Made by a program: the position numbers and the translations under genes
Source of the DNA: Treponema sp.
GTDB taxonomy: Bacteria > Spirochaetota > Spirochaetia > Treponematales > Breznakiellaceae
Assembly: GCA_031257195.1 (NCBI GenBank)
Contig: JAIRPD010000072.1
Location: forward strand, 1 to 36,899
Length of the DNA: 36,899 nucleotides
Direction: 5' to 3'
Notes under the pieces: generated by a model
Told to the model about the DNA's origin: nothing
Seen by the model: only the letters and a program-made list of their open reading frames with translations
The model's database searches: none
Shown: piece by piece, positions 8,499 to 33,569 of the stretch
Layout: every line of letters starts with the position of its first letter
Numbering within the stretch: position 1 is the first letter of the stretch

Positions 8499-8591
8499 AT
8501 GGCCGCGCCGCTCCTGGCTACGGCGGTATGGGGCTGGGGCTTTGTCTTTGCCACCATGGGCCTTAAAGCGGGTCCCCCGGCTCACTATTTT
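8499..8591 (+). pseudogene. 5' stub of an EamA/DMT-family transporter
   Basis: From ATG 8499 the frame begins MAAPLLATAVWGWGFVFATM, followed by GLKAGPPAHYFLL. This is a good match to the first transmembrane segment of EamA drug/metabolite transporters (pattern LLATxxWGxxFVxxKxGLxxGPP). After about 31 residues similarity stops abruptly, just where the convergent phosphatase gene ends (stop at 8585-8587). The remaining roughly 260 residues are absent. It starts at the end of the sugar operon hairpin, so it may once have been the next gene in that operon. I read it as a truncation left by a rearrangement. Confidence 0.55.
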
Positions 8592-11500
8592 CTATTGACC
8601 CCCAGGATCGTCAGATCATCGTACTGCTCATCCTCGTTTACATGGATATAGTACATATACGCCTCATTTCCAGGACTTTCCTGGGTATCATAACAATAAT
8701 CCCGGTACTGGAGGAAGTGGTTCCGTAAAAACTCGTCAACCTTTTTATCCACCAGTACCCGGGAATCTTCCCCAGCCCTGGGGTTTTTGTAGAGGCGGAA
8801 CATCTTTTCCACAGAAACCAGGGCCATGATTGCCTCTTCCACCGTTCCCCGGCAGCGGGTAAAGTCAAAAGACAAATCCCGGTTTTCCCCTTCGGGGTTA
8901 TGGTACTTGTGGAGGGTGTAAGCCCGCCGGTTCATCACGGCGTTAATGATCCCCTCCACCCGGTCAGGACCCATTTCCTCATCTCCCTGGCCCACGGTAT
9001 GGGTGGCGTGGGAAGTGTCCCGTTCCCCCTCCTCGCAGAGAACCTCGTTAAACCCGCCGTCCCGGAATTTACGCTTCGCCTCCTCGATACCATCCGTATA
9101 GAGGAAAAGGATGTCCCCGTGGTCTATGGTCAGGGTCTGGACCGTGTAGCCCCCCTTGGATTCAACCAGAAAGTTGGGCAGCACTCCCGTGGCGGGACTT
9201 TCCCGGAGGGTAACGGTTTTGATCCGCCCCTCGGAGGCGTCGTACCAGTGGACGATATTGTCCCCGGCGTTACAGAACCGGGCGATCCCCGTCTGGGAGT
9301 CAAAAAGGCAAAGGGTAAAGGCGGCGAACCGGCCCTTAAAAGCCAGGGTTTCGATAAAGTCATTGATCTGGTACACCACCTCCTCTATACGCATCCCCTT
9401 TTCCGTAGGTTTCCACTGTTTAAAGTAATTGAGGAACATGGTAGCCACCTGGATCATGATCAAGGCCGCGGGGATTCCCTTGCCTGCCACGTCGCATTTG
9501 ATAATCGCGAAGTAACGGCCATCCAGGTCCTGGTAGTCGAAATAGTCCCCCGACACCCCCTTGGCCCCCTCGTAGTAGCCGAAGAACTGGACATTCTTTG
9601 TGTCCTTGAACCCGCTGGTAAGCTTGTCCCCCGCCCGGCTTACGTCCAGGGGGATGAACTTTTTCTGGATCTCCTTGCCTATGGAAAGATCCGAGGCGGC
9701 CAGGGCGGCTTTAACCAGGCCGTGGGTCATGTCATTGATCGTACTCCCCAAAACAGCGATTTCGTCCTTACTCTTGATCGCTATATCCACCCCCGCCAAC
9801 TGGGTTTTGTCTTCCGTGTCCCGGATTCGTTCCACATGACTTACCAGGACGGTGATAGGCCGGATGATCAGTCCCGACAAGGCCAGGGCGCCCAGGGCGC
9901 CTATGGCTATAGCCGCCAGGGCAATGATAAGGATTATCCTGAGGATACTCCACTGTCCTTCCCTGATCTGTTCCACGATGGCGTTAATATCGACTTCCAG
10001 GCGGACAAGCCCCCGAAAATAGGAGTCGTCGTTGCTTTGGCGGTAAAGGATGGGTTTAAAGAAAATGTAGGTATCCCCCTTGTTTTCCCGCAAGGCGGTG
10101 GTGGAAAAGGCCGGCTCAGAACCAATTTCCCGGCTTATTTCCGCCAGGGCTTCGTTGGCCCGGTTTTGCAGGGACTGGGTGGTAACGGAAATATCGTTAA
10201 GCCGCCGGGTATTTTCCGGGCCGGGGTTTTCCATTAATTCCAGGCCTTCCCTGGTCAGGGCGGTGATACTGGCGTCCAGTTCGCCCACCGCCGCCTGGGC
10301 CCTCTCGTTCAGTTCCCGGCTTATTTCCTCCAGCCGGGGGGAAAGGGGATCGGTCAGCCGGGAAACCCCAATGTTCAGTTCCGGGGTATCGATCTTCGAG
10401 GCGATGTCCTGGTCGTTGGTGGCCAGTACGTGGTCGGCAAAGATGGTGTCCGCGGAACCGTAGCCGGTGATCGTCACATACCGGGCCTCGGGGATGACCG
10501 CGGACTGGGAAGGCAGGTAACCCAGTTCCAGGTAATTGTTGCTGGGCATATAGGGCCGGGCGCCGGTGGCGATTCCCTCAAGGAGTACCGCCGAACGGTC
10601 CCAAAGGCCCCGGAGCAGGGTCGCTTCCTGGGTTCGGCCCATCATCACGTAAAGGGGGGAAGAGATCATCCCCACCACCAGGATCACAAGGCCGATGGTA
10701 AACGAGGCCATCTTAAGGCGCAGCCCCGCTCCCTTCCGTTTTATCCGGAACAATCGTCTTTTCTTTTCCGAAGGCATACTATCTCCTGTGATAAGGGCTA
10801 TGGTTTCCATCCGAATCGCCGCGCTTTCCGCGGCCGCGCCGCTCAAGCCCCGGATCGAGGCGAAGATTCCCAAAAGGCAAAAAATCACGATCGCCGCCAG
10901 AATGAGGAGGGCGGGATCCACCAGTACCCTTCCTTCCCGGCGAAGGATCCAGGAAGGCCGCCAGTTCTGGGTATAGTCCCCGAATTTAACCGTTCCGGTC
11001 TTGTCCACCGTGATAAGCGGCGGGGAGTAATACAACCCCCGGCTTGGATGCTCCAAAAGGATCCGGTACAACCCCGGGGGAATATCATCGGCCTGGAGGG
11101 AATCAATTTCCCGGTCCGAAAGGATCCGGTACTCCTCCCGGTCCAGGCGGAATTCCTTATCGTAAGGTTCCTGGCCGTCCCGGTCAAGGATCACCCGGCT
11201 AAGAGCCCCGCCCTCGGCAAAGCCCCGGCCTATGATCCGCAGAAAAAGCCCCCCCCGCTCGTCCCGCCGGGCGTCGACGTAGGTGATAAAGGTCCGGGGA
11301 AGGTACTTGTTGGTCTTAAAAAAATACCTCGCGGGATTCCCCATGTTACCCGCCACATCCACCGCGGAAACACTAAAGGCCCAGAGACCGTTTTCCTGGT
11401 TGACGTAGGAGGCGGTATTTCCCGGCCCCAAAATGGTCCTTGGAGGCGGGGCGGCGGCGGGGAAGCGCTCCAGGGCCGCCCAGTTAAGTTCATCCCCGGT

Positions 11501-13144
11501 CCCTTCCAGGATCGAGACGGGACCCAGGTATTCCAAGTTCCAGGAGTAACCGGCAATATCCGAGGCGGGGGGGATATTCCAGCGCAGGGAAAAGGTGTTG
11601 GAAACCAGAAAGCCCTCGTCATCGGTTTCGGGAACGATTATTTGGGCCACCGGGGGGGCGGTGGTATCCCGAATAAAGGAAAGCTGAACCGGCTCGGACC
11701 AGTGCCCCCCCAAATCCCGGGCGGCAAGGGTAAAGTACCAGGTTCCATCCTCGCCGGCGGTACATTCCAGGGTCTGTTGAGCCAGGGGACTCATAATTTC
11801 CCGGGGAGGCCGGAGGGCGGGATCCCTGCTCCAGACCCAGGCGTAGCCTTCCACATTCAAGGCCGCCCGGGGGGGGTTCCAGCCGATCACGGCCAGGCTG
11901 TTCCTGGTTCTCCCGCCGGGGGTAAAATTCCTCGCGATAAGCTGGGGCTGGAGCGCGGTAACGTCGGTGGCCGCGGAATAGATGCGGTTCTGCCCTTGCC
12001 AGAAAACGGTCAGGCTGTCCCCCGCGGCCAGAGGACGGGCAAAGGACGCGTCCCCCCCTATGCCCCGGGAAATGTCCGTCCCCCTGGTCCAGCCCACAGC
12101 GTTCCGGGAAGCCATCATAACCCGGTTCGCCCCCAGGCTGTTATCGAACCAAACCACCACGGTGGTTCCCCTAAGCTCAAAAGCCTGGGGATTATTACAG
12201 TAAGCGTCGGCGGCGTTAACCCTGCCGGGAGGACCGTAAAGCGATCCGTCGTTGTTCAAAGCCGCGCCGTAAATTTGGGGGGGGCGGTTGTTATGGCGGC
12301 GTTCCCAGACCACGAAGAGCCTGTTCTGCTGTACCGAAAGATGGGCCCGCTGGTTGTCAAACTGATCCGGCTGGGAATCCTGGATAACCGGATCCCGGAA
12401 ACCGGTTATCCGGGCGGAGGAAGACCAGTTCCTGCCGTTATCCCCGGAGGATTTGAGGAAAAGCTGAAACGCGGGGCCGGTTTCCGCCGCGCCGGGAACC
12501 TGGGACTGGTAAACCACATAGTCCCTGCCGTTTAAGGCGGCGTGGGAGGGGAGAAAATTAAAATTCCTGTTCTGCTCAGTAACAAAGAGCTGAAAGGCCG
12601 TCCAGGAAACTCCATCATCAGACCGGGAATAGTACAGGGTAAGGTCCTGATCCCTTCCCCGGCTTACAAAGAGAAGATAACCGCCGTCTGAGCGGGTAAA
12701 TATCCGGGGGGCCACGGAACTTCCCGAACCCGCCGGGATCTGACGCCGCTCAAAAGTCCGGCCCAAATCGCTGGAGATGAGGATGTCCACCTCCGAAGCC
12801 GACGCCGCGGCGGCGATGAGGACCCTATCCTGGTGATCCACCGTAAGGCTGAGGATTGACGGCTCGGCGCCGGAATAGGTATAGCTGGCTATCCCGCTCC
12901 GGGTACGCCAGGGGGCCGTTCCCTGTTTAAGGGCCAGGCTTACGCTGATGGTCCCCCCGGAGGCGGAAGGAACCGTTTCCTGCCAGGCTATAACGGAAAG
13001 ATCTCCCCGGGAGGTGGAGACGGGAAAGGTCCCCCCCCGGGAAGAAAAGACCCGGGGGCTTTCCCAGTACAATTCCTGGGCGCCGGAAAAAAGCCCCCCC
13101 CAAAACAGGAGGGGAAGGACAAGACAGGCATAGCGAAATTTCAT
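8585..13144 (-). CDS. Membrane sensor with BNR-like ectodomain, HAMP and SpoIIE phosphatase
   Basis: A 1519-residue protein. A signal peptide (1-22) leads into a long extracytoplasmic region with sialidase/BNR-like repeats (about 30-440; SSDLGRTF, SSGDNGRNW, SDDGVSWTAF) and Ig/Fn3-like segments (about 440-640). Transmembrane segments lie near 744-765, 812-836 and 1068-1095. The region between the last two is a helical sensor domain. A HAMP domain (about 1095-1150) precedes a PP2C-type SpoIIE phosphatase (1180-1519) with metal-binding Asp in GVSGDYFDY (D1200), CDVAGKG (D1218), LYTDGIEEA (D1351) and YDDLTILG. It should turn an outside signal into dephosphorylation of a Ser/Thr target such as an anti-sigma-factor antagonist, though no such gene lies here. 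The start overlaps the TPR gene stop by ATGA. A G8 run lies in the signal-peptide codons. Confidence 0.87.
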   Translation of the reverse strand: MKFRYACLVLPLLFWGGLFSGAQELYWESPRVFSSRGGTFPVSTSRGDLSVIAWQETVPSASGGTISVSLALKQGTAPWRTRSGIASYTYSGAEPSILSLTVDHQDRVLIAAAASASEVDILISSDLGRTFERRQIPAGSGSSVAPRIFTRSDGGYLLFVSRGRDQDLTLYYSRSDDGVSWTAFQLFVTEQNRNFNFLPSHAALNGRDYVVYQSQVPGAAETGPAFQLFLKSSGDNGRNWSSSARITGFRDPVIQDSQPDQFDNQRAHLSVQQNRLFVVWERRHNNRPPQIYGAALNNDGSLYGPPGRVNAADAYCNNPQAFELRGTTVVVWFDNSLGANRVMMASRNAVGWTRGTDISRGIGGDASFARPLAAGDSLTVFWQGQNRIYSAATDVTALQPQLIARNFTPGGRTRNSLAVIGWNPPRAALNVEGYAWVWSRDPALRPPREIMSPLAQQTLECTAGEDGTWYFTLAARDLGGHWSEPVQLSFIRDTTAPPVAQIIVPETDDEGFLVSNTFSLRWNIPPASDIAGYSWNLEYLGPVSILEGTGDELNWAALERFPAAAPPPRTILGPGNTASYVNQENGLWAFSVSAVDVAGNMGNPARYFFKTNKYLPRTFITYVDARRDERGGLFLRIIGRGFAEGGALSRVILDRDGQEPYDKEFRLDREEYRILSDREIDSLQADDIPPGLYRILLEHPSRGLYYSPPLITVDKTGTVKFGDYTQNWRPSWILRREGRVLVDPALLILAAIVIFCLLGIFASIRGLSGAAAESAAIRMETIALITGDSMPSEKKRRLFRIKRKGAGLRLKMASFTIGLVILVVGMISSPLYVMMGRTQEATLLRGLWDRSAVLLEGIATGARPYMPSNNYLELGYLPSQSAVIPEARYVTITGYGSADTIFADHVLATNDQDIASKIDTPELNIGVSRLTDPLSPRLEEISRELNERAQAAVGELDASITALTREGLELMENPGPENTRRLNDISVTTQSLQNRANEALAEISREIGSEPAFSTTALRENKGDTYIFFKPILYRQSNDDSYFRGLVRLEVDINAIVEQIREGQWSILRIILIIALAAIAIGALGALALSGLIIRPITVLVSHVERIRDTEDKTQLAGVDIAIKSKDEIAVLGSTINDMTHGLVKAALAASDLSIGKEIQKKFIPLDVSRAGDKLTSGFKDTKNVQFFGYYEGAKGVSGDYFDYQDLDGRYFAIIKCDVAGKGIPAALIMIQVATMFLNYFKQWKPTEKGMRIEEVVYQINDFIETLAFKGRFAAFTLCLFDSQTGIARFCNAGDNIVHWYDASEGRIKTVTLRESPATGVLPNFLVESKGGYTVQTLTIDHGDILFLYTDGIEEAKRKFRDGGFNEVLCEEGERDTSHATHTVGQGDEEMGPDRVEGIINAVMNRRAYTLHKYHNPEGENRDLSFDFTRCRGTVEEAIMALVSVEKMFRLYKNPRAGEDSRVLVDKKVDEFLRNHFLQYRDYCYDTQESPGNEAYMYYIHVNEDEQYDDLTILGVNRK

Positions 13145-16100
13145 AAACTGGCCCGGGCCCGCTGCTCAAGGGTATTCACCCGGCTATTGTAACGGTACTG
13201 GGGATTCCGGGCGTAGATCTCCTGAACCAGGCTCAGCGCCCCCAGGGCGTTGTTTTGGCTCAGGGCGGCGATGGCCTGCTGGTATTTTCGTTCCGCCTCG
13301 GAGTCCAGGACCACGGTTCCCCCTATGATAAGCTGGGACGCCAGGTTAAAGAGGCCGATCGCTTCCTGGTTGCCGGGGTTCAGGCTGATCGCCTCCGCCA
13401 GGGCTGTCCGGGCCTCTTCCATTCTGGCGCCGTTCCGGGAGGTAACAATGGACCGGACCCCGGCGGTCAACTCCCCCGACCGGGCCAGGGCGGCGGGAGA
13501 CGGCGGGGGGGGGCGTAAACCTACATCGATTTCCGCCTGGGCCACAATGGAAGACCAGTTTGGGTACCGGGGGTTGATGGTCCGCAGGTTTAAAAGGTCG
13601 TTGTAGGCCCGCATTTCCCGGCGGCGGCACCCGGCGATGGCCCGGTTTACCCTTTCCTGAAAGGTGGCGGCAAAATTGGGATCCACCAGTTGATCGATCT
13701 GGAGGTCCAAAAGGCCCGCTTTTTCATTCATGGGATAGACCAGTTTAACCTTCTGGACATTCTCCCTGGCCAGGCTTAAACGGCGGATACCCTCGTCCCG
13801 GGAAGAGGAAATAAGGGCGTTTCCCGCCTCGTAATGTTTCTGGGCCTCGCTTAAAAACTGGCTCATCTCCGCGTAAAGGGGGGCGGTTACCGGTATGGTC
13901 CTCCCCGCCCGGAGGCCGCTGCGGACCAGCCCCAGCCAATAGACTATTTCGGGGTTATCCTCCAACTGGGTTCTCTTCCAGGTATTCTGGGCCCGGGTAA
14001 GGAGATTTTCCGCCCCCTCAAAATCCCCGTTGAAGTAGGAAGCGGTTACCTGAGCCATCAGACCCCGCACATCCCGCAGTACCGCCTCGTTTTCCAGCTT
14101 GGCGATTTCCCCGTCCAGGGCCGGCACCACATCGTTCCGCTGGTTTCGGACCGCCTCGTTGTCCTCTATCCCCAGGGACTGATCGTAGGCGTTTCCCGCC
14201 CGCAGCAGCCTGTCCCGGGCGGCGTCAAAATTCCCTTGGTCCAGGGCGGTCCGGGTTTCGGCGAGAAACTGATCCCCGTTCCGCCGGAGAGCGGCCGCCT
14301 GGGAAGATTGAGTCCGGGCGGTCTGGGCCAGGGAGCGGCCCTGGGAACGGACCGTTTCCAGCCGCTCCCGCAGGGCCAGAGCCTGATCCCGCAGGGACCT
14401 GACCGGCTCGGTGGAAACTATACCGGCGGGCTCGGCGGCGTACTGGTCCAGCAGGACCCGCAGCGTCTGGGCGTCAGCCTCAAGGGCGGCGTCCATACGG
14501 CTCAAGACTTCCGCCGCCTGGGTGGGATAGCGGGAAACATGATCGTCCTGTCCCCGGGTCCCCTGGAACAGGGTAGAACCTTCCTGGAATTCCGCTTCCC
14601 GCTGTACAAGGCGGCCCTCCAGCATGCCGTTGGCGATGGTAAAGCGCCGGCCCGAGGAAAGGTTTTCCCGGGAAGAGACGGCGTTCACCAGGCTGGAGAT
14701 AAGAGCCCCGGTTTGATCGATGTAGGCCAAAGCCCCTGAACCGGGATACCGGGTTTCCAGGTTACGGTATCCGGCGGCGTCCTCCCCCAGGGCGGCGGCA
14801 AGGCCCTGGGCCTCGATCCGGATTTGCCGGAGGGCGTTCACGGAGGACTGTTCCAGCCGGAGCAGGTCTTCCCCGTTTCCCCCGTTCCGCCAGGCCGCCG
14901 CGGTATCCTGGTCCTCCAGGGCGTTTAGGCGGAGGCCCAAGGCGCCCAGGGTTCCCAAATACGGAGGCATCTCCGAAAGGGCCCGGAATTTCAAATAATT
15001 CCCCGCCTCGGCGCTGAGGACCGGCTGGTTAAAAAAGCTTACCCCCTGGGCCGAGGGATCATACCGGTTCCAGCGGATCTCCAGATCCACCGGAAGGGCG
15101 GCATAGCCGGTGAGGATCTCCGCGCGGCTTCCGGTTCTCCGGTAATCCCCCGCGGCGGCCTCATTACGCGCCGCGGCGTACGCCAGCTGGGATTTGGCGT
15201 CCAGAAGGTCCCTGGTCCGGGAGGCCGCCTGGTTCCAGAGCGTATCCAGAACCCCCAGCATGCCATCCCCGGAATCATCGGGGTAGCCCTCCATAAGCCG
15301 CAGGGCAAAGGCCAGAAAATTTCTGTCCCCCGTGCGGGGGTTGGAACGTTGGATCCGGGAAAGATCCTCCTGAAACGCCGTTTCCGTTCCGGCATAGGCG
15401 CTCCGCAGGGCGCTCAGCCGGTCCAGTTCCGCCCCCACCCTTTGGTAGGCGTTCCGGTACACCGTCAAATTCGCGGCCTCCACGGGCTGGCCGGCCAGGT
15501 TTTCCAAACCGTTAACCGCCCCCCAAAGGGAAGCCAGGAGGGAGTAAAACAGGGCGGCATTGGCGTTAAGGCCGCCAATCCCCTGCCGGACCCTGGCCTC
15601 CATGGCCCCGTCGTAACCGGCGCGGAAAAATTCAGTCTGGTATATATCCAGTCCCCCGGTGTAGGTCCGCAGGGCCTCGGTGTAATTCCCCTGGGCTATA
15701 AGATTCTTTCCCCGAAGGAGGATCTCCTCCAGGCGCCGGCGGTTGGTGGTAAACAGGGCCAGGTCCCTGGTGCGGCTGATAAAATCCTCAGTTTCGGTGA
15801 TCCGCGAGGGATCCAGCTCAAAGAGAAGGTTGGTCAGATGAAGGATCCGGTCGGTGTTCCAGGGGTCGTTCCCCAGGGTATCCAACAGTTCCTGGGCGGT
15901 GGAGTTATACTCATCCCGGGCGGTTACTATCTTCCTGATCCGGGACTGGGCCCGGTCAAAGTCCTGGGGACTTCGCTGGGCATAGGCGCTGAGGATGGTC
16001 AGGGCTTCGGCATACCGCTTTTCCGCGATAAGCGCGTCCGCCCTGGACAGGGAATCGTCCTGCTGTCCCCGGGCGTGGAGAAGGGGCAAAGCGGCAAGGA

Positions 16101-16224
16101 GGATCAGGACAAAAGCGGCCCCGAGGAAAGAGCGCCCCGGCCCCGCTTTTTTTCCCCAAAGGCGCGCTTTCTTTTTAAGAAGGTGAAGCTTCTTTTCTAG
16201 CGTCAATCGATATACCTGCCACAC
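13141..16224 (-). CDS. Large TPR/coiled-coil envelope protein
   Basis: A 1027-residue protein with a basic N-terminus, one hydrophobic segment (about residues 33-50, signal anchor or signal peptide) and then an almost entirely helical Ala/Arg/Glu-rich body. TPR-like units are clear at both ends: ADALIAEKRYAEALTILSAY near residue 60 and the pair around AEAISLNPGNQEAIGLF and QNNALGALSLVQEIYARNPQ near the C-terminus. The middle is coiled-coil-like. No catalytic motif is seen. GTG 16224 is assumed; TTG 16206 is an alternative. Translation is coupled to the SpoIIE sensor gene, so it probably acts with it, perhaps as a periplasmic scaffold. A G9 run (13505-13513) encodes part of a proline stretch. 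The exact family is not recognised. Confidence 0.8.
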   Translation of the reverse strand: MWQVYRLTLEKKLHLLKKKARLWGKKAGPGRSFLGAAFVLILLAALPLLHARGQQDDSLSRADALIAEKRYAEALTILSAYAQRSPQDFDRAQSRIRKIVTARDEYNSTAQELLDTLGNDPWNTDRILHLTNLLFELDPSRITETEDFISRTRDLALFTTNRRRLEEILLRGKNLIAQGNYTEALRTYTGGLDIYQTEFFRAGYDGAMEARVRQGIGGLNANAALFYSLLASLWGAVNGLENLAGQPVEAANLTVYRNAYQRVGAELDRLSALRSAYAGTETAFQEDLSRIQRSNPRTGDRNFLAFALRLMEGYPDDSGDGMLGVLDTLWNQAASRTRDLLDAKSQLAYAAARNEAAAGDYRRTGSRAEILTGYAALPVDLEIRWNRYDPSAQGVSFFNQPVLSAEAGNYLKFRALSEMPPYLGTLGALGLRLNALEDQDTAAAWRNGGNGEDLLRLEQSSVNALRQIRIEAQGLAAALGEDAAGYRNLETRYPGSGALAYIDQTGALISSLVNAVSSRENLSSGRRFTIANGMLEGRLVQREAEFQEGSTLFQGTRGQDDHVSRYPTQAAEVLSRMDAALEADAQTLRVLLDQYAAEPAGIVSTEPVRSLRDQALALRERLETVRSQGRSLAQTARTQSSQAAALRRNGDQFLAETRTALDQGNFDAARDRLLRAGNAYDQSLGIEDNEAVRNQRNDVVPALDGEIAKLENEAVLRDVRGLMAQVTASYFNGDFEGAENLLTRAQNTWKRTQLEDNPEIVYWLGLVRSGLRAGRTIPVTAPLYAEMSQFLSEAQKHYEAGNALISSSRDEGIRRLSLARENVQKVKLVYPMNEKAGLLDLQIDQLVDPNFAATFQERVNRAIAGCRRREMRAYNDLLNLRTINPRYPNWSSIVAQAEIDVGLRPPPPSPAALARSGELTAGVRSIVTSRNGARMEEARTALAEAISLNPGNQEAIGLFNLASQLIIGGTVVLDSEAERKYQQAIAALSQNNALGALSLVQEIYARNPQYRYNSRVNTLEQRARASL

Positions 16225-16314: not shown

Positions 16315-17589
16315 ATGCGTGTATTCCCGCCGCTGCTTTACCTTATATTCCTGGGCGTTTTTTCCCTGTCCGCCTGGGATTTTGACTCCGGCGCTTATGG
16401 ATCTGTCGCGGATCTTTACCAGGCGGAAGACAACGCGGGGCTTACCGCTTTTCCGGTCCTCCTGGTTCCCATGGGGGGCCGGGCGGAAGGGATGGGTACG
16501 GCCTTTGCCGCCATAGCGGATGATCTTTCATTTATCGAGTGGAATCCCGCGGGTTCCTCCCGGCTCGCTTTTACCGAACTGGGGTTTTTTCATAACAACT
16601 GGATCGCCGATACCAAAGTGGAAGGGATCGTCTTTGCCTCCCGCTGGGGGGATCTGGGCTACGGGGCGGGGATCAAATGGCTGTACACCCCTTTTTCGGA
16701 ATACAACATGTACGGGGAAAGGGTTTCCAAGGGCTACTATTCCGAGGGGGTGGCTACCCTCAATATTTCCTACAACTTTTTGGCGGGGTATTACTTTTCC
16801 GGTATCGCCCTGGGGATCAATCTTAAGGGGGCCTTCCGCTTTGTGCCGGATTATTCCGACGCCGACGACCAGGGCCGGGATGGGGCGAATATCTTTTCCG
16901 GCCTGTCCCAGTCGGCGCTGATGGGCATGGCGGACATAGGGGTGTTGACCCGCTTCAACTTCCTTAAATTCTACCGGAGCAGAGAAAACAACACCTCCCT
17001 GGCTCTGACGCTCCGCAACCTGGGCCCCCCCGCTTTAGGGGAAAGCCTGCCCAGTTCGATCACCGCCGGCCTGGCCTACAAGCCATTCAGACCCCTGACC
17101 CTGGCTTTTGATTTTACCCTGCCCGTTAATTTTCAGGACCTTTCCCTGTCGGAAAAACCCTACTGGGCGGCGGGAACCAATATCGCCCTCACCAGCTTTC
17201 TCTCCATGCGGGCGGGCCTTTTGGGCAGATCCGGGGGTTACCGGATTACCATGGGAAGCGCCTTAAACCTGGAAAAGATAGCCCTGGATATGAACTATTC
17301 CCTGGACCTCCTTACCCAGGTAACCCCCCTGAACAGGATCAGCCTGGGAGTCCGGTTCAATTTTGGGGACCAGGGCCGGCGGGAAAAGGCCGCCCGGGTA
17401 GACTCCCTTTACCTTTCCGGGCTGGACGCCTACGCCGGGGGGGATGTGGAAAAAGCCAGGACCTGCTGGGAAGAGGCCCTGGCCCTAAACCCGAGGTTCG
17501 ATCCCGCCAAGGAGGGGATTGCCCTAATCAACCATACCCAGGCCCTGAATACCCGGATTATGAACATGCAAAGCCTGAATCCCGAATGA
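16315..17589 (+). CDS. UPF0164-family FadL-like outer-membrane protein
   Basis: A 424-residue protein with a signal peptide ending near SLSA (residue 19). A beta-barrel pattern follows, with alternating aromatic strands, the motif AGMGTAFAAIADDLSFIEWNPAG-like near residues 55-80 (here with GRAEGMGTAF) and a strand-rich body. This opening, with asparagine-proline-alanine-glycine, is shared with FadL/TodX-type long-chain fatty-acid channels and the treponemal UPF0164 paralogues. The last 60 residues carry a TPR-like helix pair (SGLDAYAGGDVEKARTCWEE), an addition to the barrel. No Shine-Dalgarno is visible before the ATG. It is divergent from the TPR/SpoIIE operon. The likely role is uptake of hydrophobic nutrients across the outer membrane, inferred from the family. 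Confidence 0.85.
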   Translation: MRVFPPLLYLIFLGVFSLSAWDFDSGAYGSVADLYQAEDNAGLTAFPVLLVPMGGRAEGMGTAFAAIADDLSFIEWNPAGSSRLAFTELGFFHNNWIADTKVEGIVFASRWGDLGYGAGIKWLYTPFSEYNMYGERVSKGYYSEGVATLNISYNFLAGYYFSGIALGINLKGAFRFVPDYSDADDQGRDGANIFSGLSQSALMGMADIGVLTRFNFLKFYRSRENNTSLALTLRNLGPPALGESLPSSITAGLAYKPFRPLTLAFDFTLPVNFQDLSLSEKPYWAAGTNIALTSFLSMRAGLLGRSGGYRITMGSALNLEKIALDMNYSLDLLTQVTPLNRISLGVRFNFGDQGRREKAARVDSLYLSGLDAYAGGDVEKARTCWEEALALNPRFDPAKEGIALINHTQALNTRIMNMQSLNPE

Positions 17590-17613: not shown

Positions 17614-19203
17614 CTACTTTTTTTTCTCGAATACCCGGTAATTTATGTGGGGCAGGAAGGAGTGCTTCCTTTCCAGGGCGGTGAGCCATTCGGTACTGAT
17701 ATGGTTGCTCCCCAGGGCCTCGTAAAGGGTGGTAAAATTCAGCAGGGCGTCTTCCAGTTCCTTTTTGGCGTACTCTCCGCCAAGGGGCCCTCCCTTCCAC
17801 TGGGGGTTCAGGGGTTTGGCCAAATCCGCGCTTTGGGCCAGGAGTATTTCCCGGGCCGCCTGATTCAGCGCCCGCTCCTTAAGTCCCGTACTGCCGGGAA
17901 AACGGCCGGCCATTTCGATCATCCGCTGGATCGAGCGGAAAATGTGGCGGTACATCCAGTCATTGGAGGCGTCCAGCAGCAATCCCCCATACCCTCCCTC
18001 CAGGGCGGAGGAAAATTCCGGCTCCACCACCTGAAAAGAGGAATCCCCGGTTTCCTCAAGATAATCCAGAGGGGTTTTAAGGGAAAGGGCGCCCTTAAGG
18101 GCGATTTCCGTAACCAGGGTTTCCAAAAAAGTCATACCCTCGCTCCAGGAATAGCCCAAAGCGGCGGCGTCAAAGGCCCAGAGACTTATCGCCTCCCCCT
18201 CAAGGCGCCGCTGGGCCGCCTCAAGACGGGCAACCCTCCGGTCAAGGAAACGCCGGGCCGCCTCCGCCGCCGCTTCCCGGGCTTTTTGGGGGTCGTAGAG
18301 CCGGCGGTCCTTTTCCCCCGCCCAGTACCGGTAACCGGTGGGACAGCGGCCCCCCTCGGCGTCCAGCAGGGGCTTTAAGGCCTCCACCGGCAACTCATAG
18401 CCCGCGTCGGCGAAGGAACCCTGATAAAACCCGGACCAGGAAGCCTTGAGTTCCTCCAAATCCTTCTGGGCGGTTATGTCCCGGGCAAAGATCACAAGAC
18501 CCGATTTTGTCTTTACCGGGCGGAAGGAGCCCCCCAGGGCGGGAGGGTTCCCCAATATCAGGGCGTGAGGCTCAACGATGGTATAGGTAAAATGGTATTG
18601 CCGCAGAAAAGAACCCAGTTCCGACGTCCAGCCCAGTTCGGGCAGCCAAAAGCCCCGGGGAATCTTTCCCAGGTAGCGGCGATGGTGGATCACCGCGGTT
18701 TCTATCTGGGCGTGGATCGCCTCGTCTATGGAGGCGTAAAAGGGAAGGAAAGCGCCGGTGGCGGCGCTGATCAACAATTCCAGACAGCCCCTCTTTTGGA
18801 ACCCCTCAAAGGCGGAAAGGAGATCCAGGCCGTACCGTTCCACGAGGGACACGCGCCGTTCCAAATCCCGGTCAAAGTAGTACCTTGCCAGGATGGAAAG
18901 GGCCTGATTCCCGGCGCAGCGTTCCAGCTCCTTTCCACCAAAATCCACCCGCCGGTCAAGCCAGGCCAGGTATCGTTTCAGAAGTGTTTCATCCTCCAGC
19001 ATGGCGCAAAGGGAGGGGGAAAGGACCAGCCCCAGCCGGAAGGGGACGCGGCTGTTTTCCAGCCGGCCCAGGGTTTCCAGAAGGGGAAGGTAGGTTTCCG
19101 AAAGGGCCTCAAAAAAACCCTGCTCTTCCGGGTCCTGTTCCCCCCCGGGGGAAATAAAAGGATAATGGCCGTTAATAATGATGGACAGGCGGGGTTTATT
19201 CAT
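17614..19203 (-). CDS. GH57 glycosidase, 1,4-alpha-glucan branching enzyme type
   Basis: A 529-residue GH57 protein, matching the size of the branching-enzyme/DUF1957 branch. The N-terminal strand has NGHYPFISPGG. The catalytic nucleophile is Glu189 in GFWLPELGW, and the acid/base is Asp345 in WAFDAAALGYSWSEG. In known branching enzymes that second motif reads FDTELFGHWWFEG, so the Asp is kept but the neighbouring residues are altered. A C-terminal helical domain (about 400-529) is also typical. It probably makes alpha-1,6 branches in glycogen or acts on a related glucan. The start overlaps the DUF4912 stop (ATGA), a pairing that suggests a working partnership. No signal peptide is seen. The changed acid/base loop leaves room for another glucan specificity. 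Confidence 0.85.
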   Translation of the reverse strand: MNKPRLSIIINGHYPFISPGGEQDPEEQGFFEALSETYLPLLETLGRLENSRVPFRLGLVLSPSLCAMLEDETLLKRYLAWLDRRVDFGGKELERCAGNQALSILARYYFDRDLERRVSLVERYGLDLLSAFEGFQKRGCLELLISAATGAFLPFYASIDEAIHAQIETAVIHHRRYLGKIPRGFWLPELGWTSELGSFLRQYHFTYTIVEPHALILGNPPALGGSFRPVKTKSGLVIFARDITAQKDLEELKASWSGFYQGSFADAGYELPVEALKPLLDAEGGRCPTGYRYWAGEKDRRLYDPQKAREAAAEAARRFLDRRVARLEAAQRRLEGEAISLWAFDAAALGYSWSEGMTFLETLVTEIALKGALSLKTPLDYLEETGDSSFQVVEPEFSSALEGGYGGLLLDASNDWMYRHIFRSIQRMIEMAGRFPGSTGLKERALNQAAREILLAQSADLAKPLNPQWKGGPLGGEYAKKELEDALLNFTTLYEALGSNHISTEWLTALERKHSFLPHINYRVFEKKK

Positions 19204-19931
19204 AGTCGGCGGCGCAAAACCCGGTCCGGCGCGTGAAGAACGGCAAAATCCGCCGCCCCGGAAAGCTCTATGAGGGGCTGGAACCTTTCCCCGCCGCCGG
19301 GGGTGTTTAAAAACCGGGGAAGGGCAAAGGGCCGGGAAAGAACCAAAGAACGCTCAAGCCCCCGGGCCCACAATTCCATCTGGAAGGTCCCCCCGGAAGG
19401 AAAACTCACATACCAGGAACTGTCTTGAATTCCCACGGGAATAGTGAAAGACTCGATCTGTTTGGTGGAGCCCTTGGTTGTTTCCCGCAATTCCAGGCTT
19501 TTTAAAACATACCCCTCAAACCGGGGGGAATTCTCGATCCGCTCCCGGTCCTGGGTCCCAATCTCCCAAAACACATACACCCACTGGGGGTCCCGGGGAA
19601 GGACCTCCAGGAAGGCCGCCTGATACCGGTGGGAAAGGAGGGTCAAGTCCTGGAACCCCGCGAGACCCCGTTTGCCGGAACACCGCTTACCCCGCCGGCG
19701 GACCGGTTCTTCGCTTTCCGTCATGTCCAGTTCTTCCAGCGGCGGCTCGGGGGAGGAAGCCTCCTCGTACTCATTGTCCAGCAATTCCCGGATAATGAAG
19801 GGCCGGTCAAGGTCTGGGGGTATGTCTATACCTGACTGATCGGCCAGTGCTAAAAGCTCCCCGGTGGTTAAAGTTTCCAGGCGCGCCTTAAAATCCGCTA
19901 TCGTTTGACCAGCATACACCGGATTGATCAT
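19200..19931 (-). CDS. DUF4912 domain protein
   Basis: A 243-residue cytoplasmic protein. The N-terminal part has a short helical Rho-N/SAP-like segment (LTTGELLALADQSGIDIP), then an acidic and basic linker. The DUF4912 core (about residues 90-210) includes QWVYVFWEIG, SWYVSFPSGGTFQMELW and a strand-rich Ig-like pattern. The molecular function of this domain is not established. The gene overlaps the GH57 gene by four bases, so the two proteins are made together, consistent with a carbohydrate-binding or regulatory partner. ATG 19931 is chosen. A TTG at 19955 that overlaps the preceding stop codon is possible and would add eight residues. Confidence 0.82.
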   Translation of the reverse strand: MINPVYAGQTIADFKARLETLTTGELLALADQSGIDIPPDLDRPFIIRELLDNEYEEASSPEPPLEELDMTESEEPVRRRGKRCSGKRGLAGFQDLTLLSHRYQAAFLEVLPRDPQWVYVFWEIGTQDRERIENSPRFEGYVLKSLELRETTKGSTKQIESFTIPVGIQDSSWYVSFPSGGTFQMELWARGLERSLVLSRPFALPRFLNTPGGGERFQPLIELSGAADFAVLHAPDRVLRRRL

Positions 19932-19951
19932 GGAAAAAACCCGGCCCCCTG

Positions 19952-20647
19952 TCAAGGGACCGCGCCAAGACCCGTCCTTTCCAGAAATTCCCTAAAGTAG
20001 TCCGGCAGAGGGGCGCGGATCTCCACCCCCCCCTCAACCAGGGACGGGGGCAGATACAAAGAAACAGCGTGAAGGAGGAGCCGCTTGAGGCCCATGGTTT
20101 TCCGCAGAACCCTGTTCAGGGCAAAATCCCCGTATTTATCGTCCCCCAGGACAGGATGGCCCAGGCGGGCCAGGTGGCGGCGAATCTGGTGGGTCCGGCC
20201 CGTGGCGGGTTCCAGTTCCAGGAGAGAACAAGGGCCGATCCCGCCGCCCTCCCCGCCGGCCGCCGGTTCCCCGGCAAAGGCCCGCCGGGTATAGCGGGTC
20301 CTGGCTTCCCGCTCCCGGCCCTTAACCAGAAGCGTCTCGTCAATGGTCCCCCTTTCCCCCGTCAGACCGGCGCAGGCCGCCAGGTAGCGCTTTTTAAGGC
20401 CCTCGTCCCGGGCGGCGAAAAGGGCGGCGCAGGCGGCGGCGGCTTCCCTGGTTTTGGCGGTTACCAGCACCCCGGAAGTATCCCGGTCAAGCCGGTGAAC
20501 CAGTCGGGGCGCCTCCCCGGAACGCCGGGCCAGGATGGCGTCCAGGGAAAGGCCCGCCCCCGTCCCGCCCTGGACGGAAAGTCCCGCGGGCTTATTCAGC
20601 GCCAGCAGGGCATGATCCTCAAATAAAACCTCAATATGAAACTTCAA
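19952..20647 (-). CDS. RluA-family pseudouridine synthase
   Basis: A 231-residue RNA pseudouridine synthase of the RluA/RluC family. It isomerises selected uridines in rRNA or tRNA. The catalytic Asp is in VHRLDRDTSG, preceded by LLALNKPAGLSVQGG and followed by the GRTHQIRRHLARLGHPVLGD motif. It lacks an N-terminal S4 domain, as some single-domain members do. TTG 20647 is chosen because GAGG (20653-20656) stands five bases upstream. GTG 20704 would add 19 residues encoding a repeated IEVL segment. The gene begins the three-gene operon with DUF4912 and GH57, an unusual association for an RNA-modifying enzyme. The RNA target cannot be told from sequence. Confidence 0.87.
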   Translation of the reverse strand: MKFHIEVLFEDHALLALNKPAGLSVQGGTGAGLSLDAILARRSGEAPRLVHRLDRDTSGVLVTAKTREAAAACAALFAARDEGLKKRYLAACAGLTGERGTIDETLLVKGREREARTRYTRRAFAGEPAAGGEGGGIGPCSLLELEPATGRTHQIRRHLARLGHPVLGDDKYGDFALNRVLRKTMGLKRLLLHAVSLYLPPSLVEGGVEIRAPLPDYFREFLERTGLGAVP

Positions 20648-20659
20648 TAAAACCTCAAT
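20622..20659. repeat. 24-bp-spaced direct repeat at the RluA start
   Basis: AATAAAACCTCAAT occurs at 20622-20635 and again at 20646-20659. The offset of 24 bases is exactly eight codons of the pseudouridine synthase frame, giving a repeated IEVL. It looks like a small tandem duplication; the outer copy supplies the ribosome binding site used for the TTG start. Confidence 0.6.
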
Positions 20660-20778
20660 GGCCTTTTCCGGCCTTTCTTTCGCGCCCGGTTCAGGCGGGA
20701 ACACCCGTTACGTCAATCCATGGGACCGCCGGGAAGCCAAGGTTCCCGGACAACTCCATTATATAGTATGCTGGAACT

Positions 20779-22035
20779 ATGAAAAACCGCCCCTTCCTGT
20801 TTTGGCCGCTGCCGGTTTTGCTATTCCTCACCGCGTTCCCCCTGGGGGCGGAGCCGATCCGCTCCCCCGCCTGGGGGTTCCGGCTGGACCTCCCCGAGGG
20901 GTACGAGTTTTCCGGGGGAGACGGGAGGGATCAGTTCTCCTTTCGTTCTTCCTTTGGAAGCATCCTGGACCTGACGGTCAAGCGTGCGTCTTCGCCAAAT
21001 CCCCAGGGCGGGATCAAAACCATGGCGGAGGAGTTGGGCAAAAACCTTTCCAGCCGGGGGGAAACGCGTTTTTTTAGCTACCATGGCAGGGCGGCGGCGC
21101 TGATGGAACTCCGCTTTTCCGGCCCGCGGCCGCGAGCCGGCGGAAATCCCCCGGAATACACCGGCCACGCCCTCCTCATGGAACTGGAAATGGAATCAAG
21201 GCCCATCCTCGTCGCCCTGGCCTATGGGCCGGATCGGGAAGAACTCAGGGGCCTCCATCTTTCGGCGCTGGATTCCCTGGAGGGAGGAGAGGGGGATCAC
21301 CGCCTTCCCGGCCCGGTAACGGAATGTCTTTACCCCCCGGGGGCCTGGGAAAAGCGGCGGCTGGCGGGCCAGGGCGGGGAAGCCTTTTTCCGGAAAAACG
21401 ACGAGTCCGCCGCCCAGGCCCTGGTGGACCGGGAATTCGCCGTTTTAAGGCTGTACCGTTCCTCTCCCCTATGGCGGGAGGCATGGAAACGCTTTTACCG
21501 GGCGATCTTTAAAGATTCCTACGACCGCCTTAAGGACGCCGCCTTTATCCTGGAACGGGGCTGGAACGGCGGGGTGGAAAACCAAAACACCCCAGGAACC
21601 GGTGGCCAGGCGGCGCCGGAAGCTTCCGGCGGAACGGCCCTCCCCCCCCGGAACACCGAGGCCCGGTTAATCGCCGCCAAGGCCCTGGAATGGGTTCAGG
21701 GTTTTCGCTACGAAAGGGACCTTTTGGGAAGCGATTTTGTCAACCTGATTACCGCCGTCCGGGAAGGCCGGGGGGACTGCGACAGCAGGGCCCTGCTCTG
21801 GGCGATCATCCTGGAACAGGCCAACATACCGGCGGGTATCATGGTTTCCCGGGAATACAGTCACGCCATGGGCATGGCGGACCTGGAAGGACCGGGCGCC
21901 CGGTTTCCCATGAAGGACGAGGCCGGCGCGGATATCCGCTGGATCGTGGCGGAAACCGCCGCCCAGGTTAACCTGGGCCTCATCGAGCAGGGGGTGAGCG
22001 ATCCCGCCCACTGGCTGGGAATCCTCTTTTACTAA
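20779..22035 (+). CDS. Secreted transglutaminase-like protein
   Basis: A 418-residue protein with a signal peptide (cleavage probably after PLGA, residue 24). The N-terminal two thirds are strand-rich and not recognised. The C-terminal part carries a transglutaminase-like triad: Cys334 in GRGDCDSRA, His362 in REYSHAMG and an acidic third residue, Glu392 in WIVAET. Such domains act as proteases, amidases or crosslinkers. The substrate is unknown. A low-complexity linker rich in Gly and Pro (about residues 270-295) separates the two parts and contains a C8 homopolymer (21642-21649). The gene is divergent from the pseudouridine synthase operon. TATAGT lies 11 bases before the ATG and no ribosome binding site is visible. 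Confidence 0.75.
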   Translation: MKNRPFLFWPLPVLLFLTAFPLGAEPIRSPAWGFRLDLPEGYEFSGGDGRDQFSFRSSFGSILDLTVKRASSPNPQGGIKTMAEELGKNLSSRGETRFFSYHGRAAALMELRFSGPRPRAGGNPPEYTGHALLMELEMESRPILVALAYGPDREELRGLHLSALDSLEGGEGDHRLPGPVTECLYPPGAWEKRRLAGQGGEAFFRKNDESAAQALVDREFAVLRLYRSSPLWREAWKRFYRAIFKDSYDRLKDAAFILERGWNGGVENQNTPGTGGQAAPEASGGTALPPRNTEARLIAAKALEWVQGFRYERDLLGSDFVNLITAVREGRGDCDSRALLWAIILEQANIPAGIMVSREYSHAMGMADLEGPGARFPMKDEAGADIRWIVAETAAQVNLGLIEQGVSDPAHWLGILFY

Positions 22036-23294: not shown

Positions 23295-24617
23295 ATGTCC
23301 GAAGAATCAATCCGAACTAATCACACCGCCTACAATATGCAGTCCTGGTCCAGGCAAAAGGGACTGAACCCGCTGGTGATTGAAAAAGCGGAAGGAATAT
23401 ACCTGTGGGATTCCTCCGGCAGGCGCTACACCGATATGTCCAGCCAACTCGTCAACATGAACCTGGGTCACGGGAACAAGGCCATTATCGAGGCTGTCAA
23501 AACCCAGGCGGACCGGTACTGCTATGTTTCCCCCTCCTACGCCAGCGGCCCCCGGGGGGAACTGGCCAAACTGCTGATAAGCCTTTTGCCGGATAACTTT
23601 GGCAAAATCTTCTTTACCAACGCCGGGGCGGACGCCAACGAAAACGCCGTCAAAATCGCCCGGATGTACACAGGCCGGAATAAGGTCCTTTCCCGTTACC
23701 GCAGCTATCACGGTTCCAGCTTTGGCGCGGGAAACCTCACCGGCGAGGTCCGGCGCTACGCCCTGGAACCGGGAATTCCCGGCTTTATCCACTTCTTCGC
23801 CCCCTACGTTTACCGGGAGCCGGTGAACTTTCCCTCCGAACGGGAGGCGGCGGACTACTACCTCCACAAGCTTCGGGAACAGGTACTCTACGAGAACCCT
23901 CCCACCATCGCCGCCATCGTAATCGAGACCATCTCCGGGTCCAACGGCGTGGTGATTCCCCCGGAAGGCTATATCCAGGGGATCCGGAAGATCTGTGATG
24001 AATTCGGAATCATGATGATCTGCGACGAGGTGATGATGGGCTTTGGCCGGACGGGGAAGCTCTTTGCCTTTGAGCATTGGGGGGTCAAGCCGGACCTGGT
24101 TACCTTCGCCAAGGGCGTTACCTGCGGCTATGTTCCCCTGGGCGGCGTAGCGGTCTCCTCCAAGATCGCCGAATACTTTGACGACCACCTCCTGTCCTGC
24201 GGCCTTACCTATTCGGGGCATCCCCTGGCCTGCGCCGCCGGGATCGCCTCGGTCAACTACCTTATCGAGACCAGGACCCTGGACAACGTGAACGCCCGGG
24301 GCGCGGAACTGGCGGCGGCCCTGACGGCGCTCAAGGCAAAACACAGAACCGTGGGAGATGTCCGAAGCAAGGGCTTGATGAGCGCCATAGAGCTGGTCAA
24401 GGACAAGAAAACCCGGGAACCCCTGGTTCCCTACGGCCAGGACCCGGAGGGGATCATGAAAAAGGTCAACGGCGAACTGGCAAAACGGGGCTTTATGACC
24501 TTTACCCACGAAAACATGATCATCGCGGCCCCGCCCCTGATCATCACCGGGGAGCAGCTGGCGGAAGAACTGGCCAAACTGGACGAGGTTCTGACCGTGG
24601 TGGACGGGTGGTCCTAG
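23295..24617 (+). CDS. Class III PLP-dependent aminotransferase
   Basis: A 440-residue omega-aminotransferase-type enzyme. The PLP lysine is Lys273 in VTFAKGVTCGYVPLGG, preceded by Asp244 in MMICDEVMMGFGRTG, which contacts the cofactor ring nitrogen. The FTNAGADANENAVK and YHGSSFGAGNLTG blocks are family-typical. AAGGAG (23284-23289) lies five bases before the ATG. It is probably cytoplasmic. The subgroup resembles taurine- or beta-alanine-pyruvate aminotransferases. The convergent neighbour is a phosphonopyruvate decarboxylase, so an aminoethylphosphonate-forming or -degrading role is possible. Some PLP lyases acting on aminoethylphosphonate derivatives also have this fold, so transamination is likely but not proved. 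Confidence 0.85.
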   Translation: MSEESIRTNHTAYNMQSWSRQKGLNPLVIEKAEGIYLWDSSGRRYTDMSSQLVNMNLGHGNKAIIEAVKTQADRYCYVSPSYASGPRGELAKLLISLLPDNFGKIFFTNAGADANENAVKIARMYTGRNKVLSRYRSYHGSSFGAGNLTGEVRRYALEPGIPGFIHFFAPYVYREPVNFPSEREAADYYLHKLREQVLYENPPTIAAIVIETISGSNGVVIPPEGYIQGIRKICDEFGIMMICDEVMMGFGRTGKLFAFEHWGVKPDLVTFAKGVTCGYVPLGGVAVSSKIAEYFDDHLLSCGLTYSGHPLACAAGIASVNYLIETRTLDNVNARGAELAAALTALKAKHRTVGDVRSKGLMSAIELVKDKKTREPLVPYGQDPEGIMKKVNGELAKRGFMTFTHENMIIAAPPLIITGEQLAEELAKLDEVLTVVDGWS

Positions 24618-32291: not shown

Positions 32292-33569
32292 ATGCCAATG
32301 CGGTTGACCGCCGAAGAGCGGGACATTTTGGACGGAAAAAAGGGCGCTTCTCTTGCCAAGGTGATGAAGACCCTGGTGATGTACGGCGAGGCTTTCGACG
32401 CGGAAAAGATGACGCCGATTACCGGAGCGCACGGGCATCTGGTGACCAGCGTCGGCCTGGGGGTAATGAAGCCCGTGTTCGCCCTGCTGGATTCGCTGAT
32501 TGCCGAAGGCGTGGTGTCGGGACAGAAGTTCACCGTAGACCCCCGCCCTCTGGACGGCAAGGTGCCGGCGGGATTTTTGCAAAAATTCTTCTTCAAGATC
32601 ATGTACTCCAAGCAGGCGGACTACGAGGCGCAGCTTCGCAAACTGGGACTGATACGCGACGACGGCTTTACCTGCACCTGTTACATGAACGAGGTGGGCA
32701 ACGCGCCGAAACACGGCGACATTCTCTCATGGGCGGAAAGCAGCGCCGTGGTCTACGCCAACAGCGTGCTGGGGGCGCGGTGCAACCGCAATTCGGGCAT
32801 CATCGAACTGTTCGGCAGCATCGCGGGCTGTGTGCCGCGCTTCGGGCTGCTCACCGATGAGGGGCGCAAAGCCGCGTGGATAGTCGAGGTGAAAACCACG
32901 AAGAAGCCCGAAGCCCAGCTTCTGGGCAGCGCCATAGGCATGAAGGTGATGGACGCCGTGCCGTTTATCCGGGGGCTGAACGACTGGATTGGCCGGGAAC
33001 TCACCCAGGAGGCGAAGGATTACCTGAAAGACATGGGCGCGGCAGCCGCCAGCAACGGCGCGGTGGGACTCTACCATGTTGAGAACATGACCCCCGACGC
33101 GACGGAGCGGGGACTGTCGCTGATCCTCCCCGGCGCGCAAACCTACGTCATCGACGACGCGGAGCTTGCGCGGGTGGAGCGGGAGTATCCGGTTATCTGG
33201 AAAGACAAGGCGGCGGCGCCGAAACTCTGCTTTGTCGGCTGCCCGCATCTGTCACAGGCGCAGCTTGCCGCCTGGACGGACAACGTTTGCGCCGCTTTGG
33301 AAAAAAACGGCAAAGAAAAGGTGAGCGTCCCCACGGTGTTCACCGCGGCGCCTGCGGTGCTTGAGGCGTTCAACAAAACCGGGGCGGCGGCGCGGCTGGC
33401 GAAAACCGGCGTCATCACCAGCGGCATCTGCCCGCTGATGTACATGAACAACCCGTTATGCGGCAAGATGCCGGTGATCACCAACTCCAACAAACTGCGG
33501 ACATACACCACCGCCCGCTATTACCGGGACGAGGAAATCGTGGAAAAGATTACCGGAGGATCAAAATGA
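32292..33569 (+). CDS. Aconitase X large (catalytic) subunit
   Basis: A 425-residue protein of the AcnX catalytic family (formerly DUF521), a dehydratase related to aconitase. Conserved blocks are PITGAHGHLVT near the start, CTCYMNEVGNAPKHGD, WAESSAVVYANSVLGARCNRNSG and SGICPLMY...VITNSNKLRTYT, which hold the presumed cluster-binding cysteines. Known members dehydrate cis-3-hydroxy-L-proline or mevalonate 5-phosphate. The latter is tied to an archaeal pathway and is unlikely here. AGGAGG overlaps the stop of the flavoprotein gene, and ATG 32292 or 32298 could start. It overlaps the small-subunit gene by four bases. Neighbours typical of hydroxyproline catabolism (proline racemase-like, pyrroline-2-carboxylate reductase) are absent, so the substrate is open. 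Confidence 0.88.
   Translation: MPMRLTAEERDILDGKKGASLAKVMKTLVMYGEAFDAEKMTPITGAHGHLVTSVGLGVMKPVFALLDSLIAEGVVSGQKFTVDPRPLDGKVPAGFLQKFFFKIMYSKQADYEAQLRKLGLIRDDGFTCTCYMNEVGNAPKHGDILSWAESSAVVYANSVLGARCNRNSGIIELFGSIAGCVPRFGLLTDEGRKAAWIVEVKTTKKPEAQLLGSAIGMKVMDAVPFIRGLNDWIGRELTQEAKDYLKDMGAAAASNGAVGLYHVENMTPDATERGLSLILPGAQTYVIDDAELARVEREYPVIWKDKAAAPKLCFVGCPHLSQAQLAAWTDNVCAALEKNGKEKVSVPTVFTAAPAVLEAFNKTGAAARLAKTGVITSGICPLMYMNNPLCGKMPVITNSNKLRTYTTARYYRDEEIVEKITGGSK

Follow-up and report, generated by a model that had tools for sequence, protein, structure and literature searches.

A TPR protein, a propeller-bearing SpoIIE phosphatase and a UPF0164 barrel as candidate parts of a transenvelope sensor in treponemes

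In TonB-dependent FecA-FecR signalling, an outer-membrane barrel signals through the periplasm to an inner-membrane regulator. Propellers also serve as periplasmic parts of bacterial sensors, and the Bacteroides hybrid two-component sensor BT4663 has two of them. In Treponema pallidum, TPANIC_0854 has been annotated as a SpoIIE family phosphatase, with sialidases as modelling templates (PMC10600179), and TP0855 is an abundant hypothetical protein and putative outer-membrane protein (PMC5015957, PMC11668736). In the portions of the T. pallidum literature available to us each of these proteins appears as a separate entry, TP0854 being considered a potential virulence sialidase and TP0855 a potential protein of the outer membrane. 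Here we analyse a 36,899-nucleotide stretch of Treponema sp. DNA (contig JAIRPD010000072.1; referred to as the window), in which genes for an exported TPR-type protein, for a SpoIIE phosphatase with a BNR-propeller ectodomain and for a UPF0164 barrel lie side by side. We propose, with a probability of roughly 0.45, that their three products form one transenvelope sensor. A description of these genes as one three-part unit was not found in searches of the open-licence PubMed Central (PMC) literature. The membrane phosphatase sensor that they encode probably has three parts and spans the envelope.

The two coupled genes lie on the reverse strand. The first (13141..16224), an open reading frame (ORF) of 1027 aa with a GTG start, encodes the exported, all-α TPR-type protein, and the second (8585..13144), which starts with ATG, encodes the transmembrane SpoIIE-family phosphatase of 1519 aa; an ATGA stop/start overlap of 4 bp (13141..13144) joins them. 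A preliminary description of this DNA had read the pair as a two-gene envelope sensor, and the coordinates and strand of both ORFs, the upstream position of the TPR gene and the ATGA coupling were all confirmed. It had missed, however, the adjoining gene on the forward strand (16315..17589), which diverges from the pair and encodes a UPF0164 protein, a FadL/PorV-like outer-membrane barrel that carries a TPR motif at its C-terminus, and it made no mention of a second periplasmic sensor in the phosphatase.

The pair is conserved together across relatives, which bears out the two-gene part of that description. Among 296 Spirochaetota genomes, a single-sequence search found the upstream TPR protein in 54, nearly always adjoining the phosphatase gene, and the architecture is therefore no chance reading. 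The corresponding search with the whole phosphatase returned 250 of the 296 genomes, mostly through other SpoIIE proteins, and only rows with ectodomain coverage were used. In 80 loci from named genomes, mostly treponeme metagenome-assembled genomes (MAGs) that we take to be of termite-gut origin, a TPR match lies upstream in 62 and a divergent UPF0164 gene beyond it in 48. Sixteen of the 18 loci without an adjoining TPR gene could be searched genome-wide; the gene was found elsewhere or across a contig break in 12 and was absent in four (G298, G303, G310, G311). One clade has the pair unlinked and mostly keeps the TPR gene elsewhere, with 4-10 kb of TPR-free sequence upstream of the phosphatase in G301, G305 and G306. 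In other families of the phylum, too, the more distant homologues of G027, G053, G001 and G067 are immediately preceded by a TPR-type gene.

Natural deletions indicate that the parts belong together. Some treponemes carry a short phosphatase that lacks the ectodomain and starts near the first transmembrane helix (TM1). In an order-wide sample of 156 Treponematales genomes, the TPR gene is present in 94 of the 95 genomes with an ectodomain-bearing phosphatase uncut by a contig end and in none of the 12 ectodomain-less ones (Fisher p = 5e-15, ignoring phylogeny). A quick tree of 126 phosphatase cores requires a minimum of 10 changes of ectodomain state, and this minimum holds if the count is restricted to well supported branches. 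Out of 10 independent pairs, the TPR gene follows the ectodomain state in 9-10 (sign test, p = 0.002-0.004; L076 and L134, in which the TPR or ectodomain state is undefined, were excluded). An earlier 42-row tree needed four changes, with a single clade rejected (p-AU = 2.6e-05); the exact number is unsure because of long branches among the short copies. Seven short ORFs that run into contig ends were dropped (G329, G341, G344, G365, G327, G368, G353), five of these seven having the TPR gene, and G384 and G389 have the TPR gene together with a phosphatase cut by a contig end. A match in G288 (7.4e-4) and remnants in G385 (71 aa) and G400 (134 aa) were counted as TPR-absent; G379 was scored as ectodomain-less although a contig end lies only 77 bases from the start of its ORF, and G388 has a damaged short copy. 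Judging TPR absence from single contigs was tried and abandoned, as contig-end truncation had made the call wrong in several cases.

In G212, G276, G206, G366 and G388, GH57 and DUF4912 genes still flank the short phosphatase; with these neighbours in place, only the ectodomain, the TPR gene and the UPF0164 gene are missing, all from one spot. What is kept each time is the core of membrane sensor, HAMP and SpoIIE, and the second periplasmic sensor is mostly whole in the ectodomain-less homologues. Ectodomain, TPR protein and barrel would thus constitute an input module that can be detached from a conserved core for output, and it is highly probable that the TPR protein and the ectodomain are functionally coupled.

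The window UPF0164 protein matches PF03687 at 1.4e-52 (179 bits against a cut-off of 21.4) and PorV_fam at 2.8e-17, under the cut-off. The UPF0164 proteins of T. pallidum have been modelled as FadL-like barrels, and in three of the five the C-terminus is helical, lies in the periplasm and carries a TPR motif (PMC8407342). A motif of this C-terminal type is present in the window protein too (TPR_2, residues 364-394). At E ≤ 1e-50, UPF0164 occurs in 55 of the 296 genomes, of which 54 also match the TPR protein, one of these weakly; within the window's class it occurs in 51 genomes, all 51 with the TPR gene. A genome-wide search of the same sample found no UPF0164 in any of the six ectodomain-less genomes it contains, out of the 12 known from the order sample, nor in nine order-level genomes without such a phosphatase (G138, G295, G086, G153, G157, G221, G231, G268, G269). 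UPF0164 tracks the ectodomain state in all four independent pairs of the 42-row tree (p = 0.125). We consider it likely that the barrel, too, is functionally coupled to the unit. The same set of genes is found in a 1.14-Mb genome (G056), which has a phosphatase with all its parts, a TPR gene upstream and three divergent UPF0164 genes. Judging by these UPF0164 genes and the gene order, G056 is evidently T. pallidum; the window phosphatase is evidently a homologue of TP0854 and the TPR protein one of TP0855. TP0854 and TP0855, together with the FadL-like TP0856, TP0858 and TP0859, would be the nearest known counterpart of the window unit.

Evolutionary distances among 38 loci indicate where the TPR protein may make contact. 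TPR and propeller distances correlate with a partial r of 0.52 (p = 0.001) when the phosphatase core and two neighbour genes are given, and TPR and core distances with a partial r of 0.13 (p = 0.07) when the propeller, the Ig domains and the same neighbour genes are given. The TPR distances therefore track the propeller and hardly the core, an indication that the TPR protein has the ectodomain as its partner.

The repeated joint keeping or loss of barrel, TPR protein and propeller phosphatase in treponemes suggests one signalling line across the envelope. The UPF0164 barrel would be an outer-membrane protein whose C-terminal TPR helices extend into the periplasm, where its occupancy or conformation would be communicated to the large TPR protein. 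The latter would dock onto the propeller and Ig/IPT domains of the phosphatase in the inner membrane; the signal would combine with that of the second periplasmic sensor, pass the HAMP domain and set SpoIIE activity. The substrate is probably a phosphoserine STAS protein. For a signal that runs from the outer to the inner membrane, we place the odds slightly below even. Still more tentative is the notion of a new transenvelope line as a whole, in which a FadL/PorV-like barrel acts through a dedicated giant periplasmic TPR protein on the propeller of a SpoIIE phosphatase, and a phosphoserine switch is controlled from the outer membrane.

Several observations weigh against the proposed sensor. 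Joint loss fits any joint function, not signalling alone. A phosphatase with a full ectodomain stands without a TPR gene in G400 and in three MAGs of unstated completeness (G298, G303, G311), and L076 has no TPR gene within 2.6 kb upstream. Five genomes have the TPR gene without a detectable UPF0164 (G218, G236 and G290, and G001 and G067 of another family), and G015 has phosphatase and UPF0164 without a TPR match. The genome-wide UPF0164 search covered the first six of the 12 ectodomain-less genomes. The UPF0164 distances correlate with the phosphatase core and the propeller alike (0.49 and 0.51), and thus do not place the UPF0164 contact. No STAS or anti-sigma gene is present among the scanned ORFs of the window, within which alone such linkage was sought, and G086, a genome without the phosphatase, also carries a STAS protein in the size class of the one found in the window genome. 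G400 is the sole exception in the order sample. Beside its intact full-length phosphatase lie a UPF0164 remnant of 51 aa and the in-frame-deleted TPR remnant (L248, 7426-8014), a picture of either ongoing decay or an assembly fault.

The same joint loss of three envelope-spanning proteins would also be accounted for if barrel, TPR protein and ectodomain bridged both membranes as a monitor of envelope stress or spacing, phosphatase activity being altered when tension or barrel assembly is lost. The great length of the all-α TPR protein and the periplasmic TPR at the C-terminus of the barrel are in keeping with such a device. Evidence for force or assembly sensing is absent, however, and the TPR protein diverges fast (mean distance among loci 1.23, against 0.46 for the phosphatase core), unlike a bare structural tether. 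We regard a monitor of this kind as improbable; sequence, though, barely separates it from the transenvelope sensor, and the two are hard to tell apart.

The phosphatase begins with a signal peptide (residues 1-22; 13079..13144), seen in the sequence and alignment. Hydropathy places transmembrane helices at residues 746-764 (TM1; 10853..10909), 817-835 (TM2; 10640..10696) and 1070-1088 (TM3; 9881..9937). Signal peptide and helices together imply that residues 23-745 lie outside the inner membrane, 765-816 inside and ~836-1069 outside, with HAMP and SpoIIE inside. An AlphaFold model built with 62 sequences has a mean predicted local distance difference test (pLDDT) score of 84.0 and a predicted template modelling (pTM) score of 0.47; given the latter value, the arrangement of its domains is not trusted. 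The model comprises a β-propeller with Asp-box/BNR repeats (residues ~39-404, model 17-382; 11933..13030), two Ig/Fn3-like domains (~417-627; 11264..11896), an IPT-like β domain (~633-713; 11006..11248), named from the sequence and strand pattern without a database match, and, between TM2 and TM3, the separate α/β second periplasmic sensor region (~863-1052; 9989..10558). BNR_2 matches the window protein at 3.6e-4, under the curated cut-off. Among 13 relatives, however, Pfam finds SpoIIE and HAMP in all 13, BNR_2 and Big_13 in 10 each and Y_Y_Y in three, and the weak ectodomain matches are credible because the relatives match as well. A sequence search against solved structures returned no match for either the phosphatase or the TPR protein.

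On the inner side, the HAMP domain (residues 1089-1143; 9716..9880; Pfam 4.1e-06) is followed by the SpoIIE/PP2C phosphatase domain (1150-1519; 8588..9697), in which PF07228 matches residues 1209-1365 at 5.9e-26. An alignment of its metal-binding residues found the aspartates intact: all 126 rows carry D1200, D1218 and D1351, and every one of the 124 rows extending to D1509/D1510 has that pair, ectodomain-less rows included. Neither outcome that the preliminary description had named as refuting it, two genes that are not conserved together or a phosphatase without these residues, was obtained. The domain is apparently catalytically intact and the phosphatase active. An insert of ~138 residues (~1366-1503; 8636..9049), specific to the family and missing from relatives in other families of the phylum, separates the TDG motif (1350-1352) from the closing DDLT. 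Its E1446 and R1450 are near-invariant, and it is present with or without the ectodomain; perhaps it is a site for the substrate or a regulator. In G374 (C15) the phosphatase core lies inside an open frame of 2521 aa, possibly a fusion.

The preliminary description had called the ectodomain sialidase-like. Sialidases are six-bladed, and the families of the best structural matches described below are seven-bladed. The AlphaFold propeller shows a strand pattern of about 7 × 4. With VIA-align, the propeller reached Z-scores of ~30 to CylK and PLL lectins and of 27-28 to GH145-type enzymes; no sialidase stands in the top list, although this excludes nothing. Sialidases of family GH33 are marked by an Arg triad, a Tyr/Glu nucleophile pair and an Asp acid/base. 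When these catalytic residues were sought by conservation, without superposition, no catalytic Tyr was found conserved; at the position of the FRIP-like Arg the window protein has Thr and the relatives vary; among 13 diverse rows, only Y26 and Y90 are propeller tyrosines present in at least 80%, and neither lies near the propeller end. With lectins, lyases and GH145-type enzymes as best structural matches, the sialidase label was not upheld. A phosphatase fused to an active sialidase, or to another active glycosidase, and serving as the virulence factor proposed for TP0854, would agree with the sialidases among the Foldseek matches of the ectodomain (2ber, 2.6e-11) and with the Phyre2 modelling of TPANIC_0854 on sialidases, reported for 17-26% of the protein (PMC5956850). 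Given the residues and matches above, and a topology that places the propeller in the periplasm, we consider it very improbable.

A sensor of glycans was the function suggested by the preliminary description. The propeller would then bind carbohydrate in the periplasm, as in the Bacteroides hybrid two-component sensors, the TPR protein would be an accessory scaffold, and SpoIIE would replace the histidine kinase as output. The fold is closest to PLL lectins that bind fucose or rhamnose and to enzymes of the GH145/PL25 type, which is consistent with this, as are the BT4663 ectodomain among the Foldseek matches, the Y_Y_Y domains of the three relatives and the sugar-use genes on one side of the pair in the window. 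That neighbourhood is not conserved, however, ABC permease genes recurring in only 1-2 of the 80 loci; the unit is retained in the T. pallidum-like genome of 1.14 Mb; and a common propeller fold proves no ligand. Joint loss of the outer-membrane barrel, moreover, would go unexplained unless the barrel imports the ligand. Periplasmic glycan sensing is thus an unlikely alternative to the transenvelope sensor, if the least unlikely of the three. For the more specific suggestion of host or plant glycans we found no evidence at all, the unit being present in gut-type and pathogen-type treponemes alike.

The TPR-type protein was modelled by AlphaFold as all-α with a mean pLDDT of 88.7. Its best Pfam match, TPR_19, falls just short of the 25-bit cut-off with 24.9 bits (26.0 when the leader is removed), and the various TPR models each match at most 13 of 40 relatives. 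No convincing or full-length structural match to the model was obtained, the best Z-score of 11.4 being under the level that the tool takes as meaningful for helical proteins. Hydropathy shows one hydrophobic leader (residues 33-51) and a weaker stretch (955-973) within the helical repeat region, and no lipobox Cys was seen among the sequences compared. Most relatives align or begin only from about residue 37, so that the GTG start is doubtful and the true start probably lies further in. Given its signal sequence, the protein must be periplasmic or anchored facing the periplasm. The label of TPR scaffold gave no location for what is an exported protein. As the model is all-helical and the protein exported, this homologue of TP0855 is no barrel. 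The TPR protein of G377 (L260) has 1232 aa and matches part of the profile twice.

The partner-switching cascade once proposed as output is not supported as written. The window genome, which is 91% complete, holds two SpoIIE proteins, one STAS match and one CBS-HATPase protein, the latter two outside the window. The STAS protein, the only one found, has 183 aa, an SSTGIG motif and a C-terminal Cys4 zinc-ribbon-like tail (L238:4830-5381, forward strand). The other protein fuses two CBS domains to HATPase_c_2 (L239:632-1597, reverse strand), and ORFs of similar size occur in several treponemes; it is a candidate anti-sigma-type kinase under nucleotide control. The two could form a partner switch with either SpoIIE phosphatase, a possible arrangement that is so far unlinked. 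Related genomes have a separate SpoIIE/STAS/HATPase cluster.

Elsewhere in the window, GH57, DUF4912 and pseudouridine synthase genes (17614-20704, reverse strand) keep their position beside the unit in many relatives, including some without the unit. Two ORFs of ~400 aa (20779-22035, forward, and 23307-24509, reverse) have no Pfam matches, and the first is kept in 23 of the 80 loci. At 32292-34018 (forward) the large and small (swivel) parts of aconitase X lie beside an FMN/FAD oxidoreductase gene.

The proposal offers a testable function for treponemal proteins without an assigned one, namely TP0854, TP0855 and the FadL-like group of T. pallidum, and corrects the view that TP0854 may be a virulence factor with sialidase activity. 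If it is true, the FadL-like vaccine candidates of T. pallidum would be at least partly receptors and not transporters alone, and spirochaetes would have a route to sense the outside from a protein-poor outer membrane. That nature has removed these input parts time and again while the core was kept gives an unusually clean hint as to which parts cooperate.

Like the partner-switching phosphatases of the RsbU/SpoIIE type, the window protein joins a membrane sensor to HAMP and to a SpoIIE domain with intact metal-binding aspartates. It differs from them in the propeller/Ig/IPT ectodomain, the exported TPR partner gene, the SpoIIE insert and the lack of a linked STAS or anti-sigma gene. With hybrid two-component sensors such as BT4663 it shares a periplasmic propeller followed by Ig/Y_Y_Y-like domains and a TM helix; it has one propeller, however, Pfam finds HAMP and SpoIIE in place of HisKA, and its companion genes are lost together with the ectodomain. 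FecA-FecR has, as far as seen, no parts homologous to those of the window unit, in which a FadL/PorV-like barrel, a TPR protein and a phosphatase stand instead.

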